Source: a virus. Taken from it: DNA of 31,269 nt. The notes beneath the pieces were generated by a model. It was not told the origin of the DNA and made no database searches. It worked only from the letters and a program-made list of their open reading frames with translations. This document shows positions 4,579 to 6,534 of the stretch, in pieces (the stretch's first letter is position 1; each line of letters opens with the position of its first letter). Location: the IMG/VR virus record IMGVR_UViG_3300009149_000169, positions 1 to 31,269 of that record. One strand, 5' to 3'. Position numbers and translations under genes: made by a program.

Positions 4579-4625
4579 GTGGTCTGAAGGCCAAAGTACG
4601 TTAGCTTTTCATCACCCTCCTCCGA

Positions 4626-4664
4626 AGTGCTCGTCCCGTCCCACTTGGGACGAGCGCTTTTTTT
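4626..4664 (+). terminator. Strong intrinsic terminator after the lysis-like cassette
   Basis: AGTGCTCGTCCC (4626-4637) pairs with GGGACGAGCGCT (4647-4658), including one G-U pair, around a 9-base loop and runs into seven T residues (4658-4664). Confidence 0.9.
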
Positions 4665-4738
4665 ATTTTGTAACTATTGCATATATAAGACTTTACGATT
4701 TTGTCCTAAAAAACTAAGTGTCCAATTCCAGATTTTGT

Positions 4739-4767
4739 TTGACTTTCTTGGCTCGATAGTCGATAAT
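4739..4767 (+). promoter_or_regulatory. Sigma70-type promoter of the structured RNA
   Basis: TTGACT (4739-4744), a 17-base spacer and GATAAT (4762-4767): five of six matches in each hexamer at the ideal spacing. Predicted start near 4774. It lies just downstream of a terminator, so the unit it drives is isolated from upstream transcription. Confidence 0.7.
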
Positions 4768-4773
4768 GCAAAT

Positions 4774-4900
4774 AATATGATAACTTAAAAAAGGACAAAG
4801 CATTATGGACGCAAAGCACATTATCCGAAATTTAGCCCCAGCAGGCATATCTGCCGCCTTGTGCGGTTGCTTTGCGTCCAACTGTTGGGGCTTGTTTTTT
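4774..4900 (+). ncRNA. Candidate structured small RNA with interleaved stems (pseudoknot or switch)
   Basis: Stem A is a perfect 13-base inverted repeat (TGGACGCAAAGCA 4806-4818 with 4868-4880). Stem B is 11 pairs with one G-U (AGCCCCAGCAG 4834-4844 with 4882-4892). Their arms alternate A5'-B5'-A3'-B3', so they must either form a pseudoknot or exclude each other. Stem B runs into a T-tract (CTTGTTTTTT, 4891-4900), so B acts as a terminator hairpin and A would compete with it. Between B5' and A3' lie two further small hairpins (GCAG...CTGC 4841-4854; CCGC...GCGG 4854-4866). A partial duplicate of the A5' arm (GGACAAAGC, 4793-4801) offers an alternative pairing. With the promoter this gives a self-contained transcript of about 126 bases. 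A 38-codon reading frame (4805-4921) overlaps it, so a structured small-peptide mRNA is the main alternative. Confidence 0.55.
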
Positions 4901-4921
4901 ATTCGTCCAAAACATCGGTGA
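4805..4921 (+). CDS. Possible 38-residue hydrophobic peptide inside the structured RNA
   Basis: ATG at 4805 with AAGGA about 9 bases upstream; the frame ends at TGA 4919-4921. The product has a hydrophobic, cysteine-containing middle (AGISAALCGCFASNCWGLFF) and a basic end. The strong inverted repeats overlay most of the frame, and stem A would bury the start region, as in type I toxin-like mRNAs. Equally, the frame may be accidental. No relative is recognised. Confidence 0.25.
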   Translation: MDAKHIIRNLAPAGISAALCGCFASNCWGLFFIRPKHR

Positions 4922-5039: not shown

Positions 5040-5432
5040 ATGGCAAAGCAAAAGGAAAATGACAAAGTAAAAACCACTCACGAAAGGCATCTTTTGAAGT
5101 GCGAACTTTCCCAGGACGAGCTTCTGCAATGTGGAGATGAACTTGCAGGTGCACTTGATAATTTGCGTCAAGCGCAAGAGGAAAAGGAATCGGTCGTTAA
5201 GGATTTTAAGGCGAAAGAGGCGATGTGTGAGGCGGAGATAACCACCAAACAGCTTCTTGTCCGCAACAAGTATGAGTATCGCCAAACCGATTGCAAACTC
5301 ATTCTCGATTACACCAAACAATCTGCCACGCTCATACGCCTTGATACCGAGGGAATCGTCAATGAGCGTCAGTTGTCAGAAGAAGAAAAGCAGATGGATT
5401 TGGGCTTTGACGGAGAGGAACAAGCAGCATAA
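5040..5432 (+). CDS. Conserved phage protein of unknown function
   Basis: 130 residues; AAAGGAT lies about 8 bases before the ATG. A central helical segment rich in Glu/Gln/Lys is followed by Y-E-Y-R-x-T-D-C-K, L-I-R-L-D-T-E-G-I-V-x-E-R-x-L-S-x-E-E-K-Q. I recall this arrangement (coiled middle, Y-E-Y-R-x-V-x-C, R-x-D-T-x-E) from hypothetical proteins in many phage early regions, where it has no assigned role. It is first in a run of small + strand genes after the structured RNA. Confidence 0.75.
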   Translation: MAKQKENDKVKTTHERHLLKCELSQDELLQCGDELAGALDNLRQAQEEKESVVKDFKAKEAMCEAEITTKQLLVRNKYEYRQTDCKLILDYTKQSATLIRLDTEGIVNERQLSEEEKQMDLGFDGEEQAA

Positions 5433-5827: not shown

Positions 5828-6121
5828 ATGGCTAAATACAGAAAAAAACCAATAGTCGTTGAAGCATACCAATTTTGGCGGGATGAATATTTTTTCAATA
5901 AACCGGAAAATCTGCCAAGAGGTTTGTTTGTAGATGAGTTTTCTGTTGGGGGGGCCAAAGGTACTATTCGCAACAGAGCTGGTTTCTATGTCAATACTAT
6001 CCACAACCAGAAAACGTACTTGTCTGACGGCGATTGGATTGTTGCCGAACCCGATGGCGAACATTTTTATCCCTGCAAGCCCGACATATTTGAACAAACC
6101 TACGAGAAAGTTGAGGACTAA
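5828..6121 (+). CDS. Conserved phage protein (KYRKKP...GDWI...KPDIFE..Y family)
   Basis: 97 residues. It begins M-A-K-Y-R-K-K-P-I-V-V-E-A and ends with S-D-G-D-W-I-V-A-E-P-D-G-E-x-F-Y-P-C-K-P-D-I-F-E-x-T-Y. This start-and-end signature is very common in small phage proteins (PGDYG-like) of unknown role. The start follows an AAAAGGGG ribosome site. The stop is followed within 3 bases by the next gene's ATG (TAATAATGG). Confidence 0.8.
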   Translation: MAKYRKKPIVVEAYQFWRDEYFFNKPENLPRGLFVDEFSVGGAKGTIRNRAGFYVNTIHNQKTYLSDGDWIVAEPDGEHFYPCKPDIFEQTYEKVED

Positions 6122-6123
6122 TA

Positions 6124-6534
6124 ATGGCTAATCCAGATGATTTAGAACAGAAGGTTTTGGACGCAGCAGATGAACCGAAGGGCGATTATCCTTGCCCGCA
6201 ATGCAGCGAGAGATATTTCGACTCAGAGAAAATACGCCCCTGTTTCTATTGCTCTAATAGGTTCTGTGTCAAGTGCAGGGAGAGAGATTCAGACCCCGTA
6301 ACCGGCGAGATTGTTGATATTTGCAGTACTTGCGCAGAGAAGATTCAGGAAATTGCAGACCAAGAGAGAAAAATCCGGCAACAGGCCGCCGAGATTGAGC
6401 GACTGAAAGCATTTGCTGGCGAAGTTGGTTATTTTACTTTTCGTCAAATCGAAGAAAACGTAGAGGATGGAGATGTTAAGGACTTACTGCATAAATTGGT
6501 GCAAACTGGTCGGGAATTAGCAAAAAAGCAATAA
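6124..6534 (+). CDS. Zinc-finger / coiled-coil protein
   Basis: 136 residues. Four Cys pairs (CPQC, CFYC, CVKC, CSTC at about residues 24-78) with FYVE/RING-like spacing could bind two zinc ions. A coiled coil follows (KIQEIADQERKIRQQAAEIE). The C-terminal part (FTFRQIEENV...LLHKLVQTGRELAKKQ) is helical. Probably a protein- or nucleic-acid-binding adaptor; no family is named with confidence. The start overlaps the leader TAATAATGG of the preceding gene. Confidence 0.65.
   Translation: MANPDDLEQKVLDAADEPKGDYPCPQCSERYFDSEKIRPCFYCSNRFCVKCRERDSDPVTGEIVDICSTCAEKIQEIADQERKIRQQAAEIERLKAFAGEVGYFTFRQIEENVEDGDVKDLLHKLVQTGRELAKKQ

Follow-up and report, generated by a model that had tools for sequence, protein, structure and literature searches.

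Interleaved RNA stems under a short leader reading frame look like an undescribed on/off switch of phage operons

In attenuators of the trp and pyrBI kind, the operon begins with a promoter-proximal leader that contains a short open reading frame (ORF), a stem that folds earlier and an intrinsic terminator, and the position of the ribosome chooses between stems. The CI RNA of P4 and the C4 RNA of P1 and P7 are short RNAs that come from the leader of their own target operon and are complementary to that leader; in P1, the antisense target is separated from the regulated gene by a small ORF (icd), and C4 is represented in Rfam. Riboswitch pseudoknots contain interleaved stems whose output is a terminator or a ribosome site, and in the put antitermination RNA of HK022 a structured RNA at the start of a phage early transcript affects termination. 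Each of these systems resembles in part an element located at positions 4739 to 4921 of a viral sequence of 31,269 nucleotides (nt) (IMG/VR record IMGVR_UViG_3300009149_000169, positions 1 to 31,269; hereafter the window). The element consists of two interleaved stems and a U-tract beneath a short ORF, and its sequence looks like that of an on/off switch for phage operons, so far undescribed.

All features of the element lie on the plus strand. A sigma-70-type promoter (TTGACT at 4739-4744, a 17-nt spacer and GATAAT at 4762-4767; 10/12 matches) is followed by a predicted transcript start near 4774, and the first stem (S1) begins 38 nt behind the promoter. S1 joins TGGACGCAAAGCA (4806-4818) to TGCTTTGCGTCCA (4868-4880) in 13 perfect base pairs (bp). 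The second stem (S2) is an inverted repeat of 11 bp formed by AGCCCCAGCAG (4834-4844) and CTGTTGGGGCT (4882-4892), with one G·U pair (4841·4885). The arms are strictly interleaved, the S1 3' arm lying within the S2 loop, and the U-tract TGTTTTTTATT (4893-4903) follows S2 as the predicted end of a terminator. A Shine-Dalgarno-like AAAAGGAC (AAGGA; 4789-4796) stands before a leader ORF of 38 codons (MDAKHIIRNLAPAGISAALCGCFASNCWGLFFIRPKHR; 4805-4921), with 9 nt between AGGA and AUG. This frame runs across both stems; its AUG at 4805 lies 1 base ahead of S1 and overlaps the first S1 base, so that the S1 5' arm covers part of the start codon and codons 2-5. The promoter spacing, the interleaving, the U-tract and the 38-codon frame had all been proposed in an earlier interpretation made from the letters of the window (the sequence-only reading) and were confirmed at these coordinates. 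Its description of both stems as perfect holds for S1 and is slightly too strong for S2.

The same reading had taken the RNA to be undescribed, and this agrees with searches of Rfam, in which no family matched the element at the gathering threshold or at loose E values up to 10, the C4 model included. Similar DNA in cultured phages amounted to short chance matches, and no paper on such an element was found among open-access papers.

Recurrence was assessed in the contigs of 48 phages that carry a terminator-associated box also present in the window (1.49 Mb; the box is described below). Interleaved stems followed by a U-tract gave 18 matches over both strands, corresponding to about a dozen elements, versus 0-2 in Markov shuffles. 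When a promoter of at least 9/12 was included in the pattern, 7 matches were obtained in real DNA and 0 in each of four Markov-shuffled copies. A second detector, which begins at promoters and permits G·U pairs, gave 9 matches versus 0 in three shuffles and added the elements G002 and G026b. It also gave 1 match in host contigs (L086; 0.86 Mb) and none in lambda-like phages (0.78 Mb); the latter sample consists mostly of late genes, says little on other hosts and yielded nothing but tandem operator arrays of a single repeat. Another scan, for S2 of the G011 type, returned six stretches, of which five were known already and one (L364) was rejected as a chance match with neither promoter nor S1. 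Homology-based finds were G034, G013, G016 and L279/L282. In total, 19 elements were collected, 18 of them in about 15 phages and 1 in a Planctomycetota contig (L086); 17 are independent, G034 being a homologue of G011 and G013 a homologue of G040. The common order is promoter, S1 5', S2 5', S1 3', S2 3', U-tract and first gene, while the stem sequences are mostly unrelated. Given that the fold of 4775-4905 has a z-score of -2.6 and that shuffled DNA yields no interleaved stems with a promoter, the architecture is not a product of chance.

Pairing cannot be proved with elements that were recovered through their stems, as the argument would be circular. Four elements were found otherwise and still have interleaved stems: G005 by synteny, L279 by the promoter pattern, G016 by a tail match to L279 and G034 by sequence homology. 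The phage of G005 is a relative with 50% identity in the window's large protein, and it carries the element at the same place, with the same box and a similar promoter region (CCAGATTTnnTTTGACTT). There, the two best inverted repeats within 700 nt are interleaved (14 bp and 13 bp) and unrelated in sequence to those of the window. The T-rich tail is present in nearly all members, including G034, L279 and G016, which were found without a tail criterion.

Between G011 and G034, S1 shows one compensatory change from C-G to U-A and one change from G-C to G-U, and 20/20 pairs are kept, compared with 43-56% pairing when the partner is slid by one column. Between G040 and G013, S2 is unchanged and S1 is shortened. 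Covariation, to which the sequence-only reading had looked for support, is therefore present as one compensatory change, and it is suggestive only because two sequences cannot beat a shuffle control.

Over the 19 elements, S1 measures 7-14 bp, S2 7-13 bp and the three loops 1-50, 5-34 and 1-24 nt. This spread bears on two other explanations. The RNA could be a stable stand-alone small RNA or a pseudoknotted 5' cap structure whose role would be to protect the transcript or to act on other targets, readthrough being incidental; S1 does link the near-5' region of the transcript to the terminator in a unit of about 126 nt, and the distance from promoter to S1 is short in most members. However, the loops of G003 (1, 10 and 1 nt) geometrically bar both stems from forming together, and in the window, where the third loop is 1 nt, their coexistence would be strained. 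Such an RNA would also explain neither the enrichment of the leader frame nor the proximity of the first gene (both below), and we regard it as improbable. A ligand-binding riboswitch with a pseudoknot aptamer would fit the switch-like alternative stems and an output through a terminator in most members or a ribosome site in G005. Across members, though, the highly variable loops hold no conserved nucleotides or aptamer core, no Rfam family matches even at the loose threshold and the first genes are unrelated; the riboswitch is disfavoured on account of the missing core, and we give it next to no credence.

The first loop is A-rich and G-poor among member elements (41% A, 13% G). In the window (4819-4833), G026b and G002 (the L225 and L017 elements) it contains a shared ATCCGAAA / ACCCGAAAC. 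Because the window, G026b and G002 have this in common, there is a hint that some elements are distant homologues in spite of their unrelated stems.

The leader frame recurs with the stems. Of the 17 independent elements, 14 have an ATG between -11 and +12 relative to the S1 start (mostly -1 to -6) that opens a frame continuing past S2, against 1.5 expected from sequences randomised with pairing and composition preserved (P about 6e-13); in the first set of elements the count was 9/12 (P 3e-8). Over all members the open frame is retained in 16/19. The leader peptides are unrelated and have no common codon run, and an indel between G011 and G034 shifts the second half of the frame while both frames remain open; what is conserved is hence not a peptide but a frame that begins at S1 and stays open. 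In 15/19 elements the first gene begins 7-27 nt past S2, and the leader stop overlaps or abuts its start in G002, G005, G009b, G026b, G028, G040 and G046. First genes are themselves unrelated between members and encode an HNH nuclease, a DnaD/HTH protein, DUF7736, an integrase or proteins of no known kind. In the window, the first operon gene behind the leader (5040-5432, plus strand) encodes 130 amino acids with no family match.

These frames also speak to the toxin-type mRNA that the sequence-only reading had entertained, in which a type I toxin or other small-protein gene would have its mRNA kept inert by long-range pairing and the peptide would be the product. In favour of it, the frame opens with a start codon that S1 covers, several members also have a Shine-Dalgarno-like site, and the window peptide has a hydrophobic middle part. 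Against this, the peptides are unrelated in character as well as in sequence, with no conserved small hydrophobic peptide among them, the homologous frames of G011 and G034 drift apart, and three members have no frame. No minus-strand promoter of at least 9/12 lies over the element in the window, and a tblastn search of cultured phages with the window peptide gave no match. The toxin reading is disfavoured because the peptides are unrelated, and we consider it very improbable. For the same reason, together with the missing common codon run, the element was not filed as an amino-acid-sensing leader peptide; the ORFs contain no regulatory codons or stalling signal.

Folding predictions suggest an order of events. 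S1 was fully formed before the S2 3' arm had been made in 18/19 elements, and with the S1 5' arm blocked S2 was fully formed in 19/19; the median energy gap between the two predicted states is 2.1 kcal/mol. In the window and in nearly all members, the G+C-rich S2 with its T-run is, by sequence, a predicted intrinsic terminator. We therefore consider it probable, with substantial doubt, that the element is a phage operon leader acting as a translation-coupled RNA attenuator, a reading supported by the anatomy, the recurrence, the frame enrichment, the predicted fold order and the near-equal energies of the two states. RNA polymerase would start behind the promoter at 4739-4767 and make the S1 5' arm, which bears the start codon and the beginning of the leader ORF, about five codons. 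If an early ribosome loaded before the S1 3' arm was made and trailed the polymerase, both stems would be kept open and transcription would read through into the operon. If the S1 5' arm were merely occupied, or a ribosome stalled there, S2 would form as a terminator and transcription would stop after about 126 nt. With no ribosome, S1 would fold first and hide the start codon, after which S1 and S2 would compete or make a strained pseudoknot; strict exclusion follows from geometry in G003 alone, a pseudoknot may form elsewhere, and mutual exclusion of the stems in most members is what we infer. This agrees with the earlier suggestion of a switch in which S2 is the terminator and decides entry into the early genes, a suggestion favoured by the comparative evidence (an architecture recurring with unrelated sequences, and the compensatory change).

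Several observations weigh against the attenuator. The loops of S2 are long, unlike those of efficient terminators. G005 has no U-tract; instead, its S2 3' arm overlaps the ribosome site of the gene that follows. G003, G009a and G043 lack an ATG frame. The leader stop in the window lies 118 nt before the next gene (5040), which precludes translational coupling to that gene there, and the covariation stems from a single pair of sequences.

A further alternative, with the length and near-perfection of S1 in its favour, is a trans-acting RNA for immunity or timing, akin to P4 CI or P1 C4. The terminated RNA, with S2 closed and S1 open, would pair through its S1 3' arm with the start-codon region of new transcripts; this would block leader translation and S1, favour S2 and yield more terminated RNA, so that the off state would propagate itself and confer immunity against phages that share the stems. 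Its antisense arm would sit in the terminator loop and its target would be the start codon. Homologous promoters stand before unrelated stems in the window, G046 and L279, as immunity groups would show, which fits the idea and does not prove it, and integrases occur in G013, G029, G040, G046 and G043. In the window's virus and its nearest relatives, by contrast, there is no integrase. No second S1-arm target beyond chance was found in the same genomes, the sole complement being the element's own S1 5' arm; one 12-mer within the window's terminase gene was taken as chance (about 0.3 expected). In addition, two phages (G009 and G026) carry two different elements each, the S1 arms are not predicted to be especially accessible in the S2 state, and a purely structural cis element would diverge likewise. 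We judge a trans-acting RNA unlikely. Slightly less likely still is its fuller form, in which the terminated leader, holding the antisense of its own start codon in the terminator loop, would act as a self-propagating switch and give heteroimmunity free of any repressor, with the stem as a lineage-specific "password". Separately, TTGCTTTGC (4867-4875, in the region of the S1 3' arm) is complementary to GCAAAGCAA (5043-5051), just past the start codon of the next gene; this could be chance.

The window comes from a P22-like podovirus (portal PF16510), of which it is a 31.3-kb fragment. The virus is also represented by a longer contig (L002; 43.6 kb, 99.98% identity over 9.1 kb), in which the interleaved-stem element is identical. 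Positions 1-123 of the window are part of a repeat, and these first 123 bases are present twice, 252 nt apart, at 6000-6374 of the longer contig; for this reason this end of the window is probably an assembly break. Used as search bait, the early-gene proteins gave matches only from the same virus, and the collections searched yielded no closer relatives (80-95% identity) in which covariation of the window's own stems could be followed.

Upstream of the element, lysis/lipoprotein-type genes are followed by a terminator (4624-4660) and then by the promoter. A 24-nt box, AGCTTTTCATCACCCTCCTCCGAA, stands directly before this intrinsic terminator (4604-4660 together). In viral contigs the box TTTCATnACCCTCCTCCGAA was found in 45 stretches, with a G+C-rich hairpin after it and usually a T-run as well. 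Genome contigs gave at least 117 stretches, and of the 80 that were listed 78 carry titles of planctomycete, Planctomycetota or Phycisphaerae-type bacteria. The box had no match in Rfam, no paper on it was found in the open-access literature, and it may represent a terminator-associated RNA motif of Phycisphaerae that has yet to be described. As its matches are almost all from Planctomycetota, the box, on which the assignment is based, makes Phycisphaerae (Planctomycetota) the most likely host of the phage.

Between the box and the promoter lie GTCCTAAAAA (4703-4712) and GTCCAA (4720-4725), both on the plus strand. A pattern scan of viral contigs found GTCCTAAAAA-n-GTCCAA in 8 stretches, including G046 and L279/L282, both with interleaved-stem elements. 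About 15-40 nt upstream of the -35 box, the pair is common to phages with unrelated downstream RNAs (the window, L074, L279, L281 and L278), and it is possibly a regulator binding site. The element of L086 (minus strand, about 2430-2720) has the same design, and 1.8 kb downstream of it there is a gene for an integrase-like protein; this region of the host contig is probably a prophage or other mobile element.

If the attenuator reading is true, the element represents an undescribed regulatory RNA architecture that is conserved in shape, place and reading frame and not in sequence, and that therefore escapes Rfam and searches based on sequence. It would head operons in viruses of Planctomycetota, whose phages have hardly been studied, and it offers a simple testable model for coupling the transcription of phage operons to translation, possibly also for RNA-based immunity.

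Compared with the described systems, the put RNA differs in having two consecutive hairpins and neither a leader ORF nor a terminator of its own. Riboswitch pseudoknots have conserved aptamer nucleotides, whereas the present element has none and its loops vary widely. Unlike P4 CI and C4, it has no Rfam match and no separate target copies were found for it; the whole arrangement fits into about 100 nt, and an effect in trans is a proposal. The attenuators of the trp and pyrBI kind share its general layout, and stem choice by ribosome position is proposed for the element as well. It differs from them in lacking regulatory codons and in having stems that are unrelated in sequence between relatives. 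Its two stems share no arm but interleave instead, and its ORF, which extends across the terminator, starts within the first stem or immediately ahead of it.
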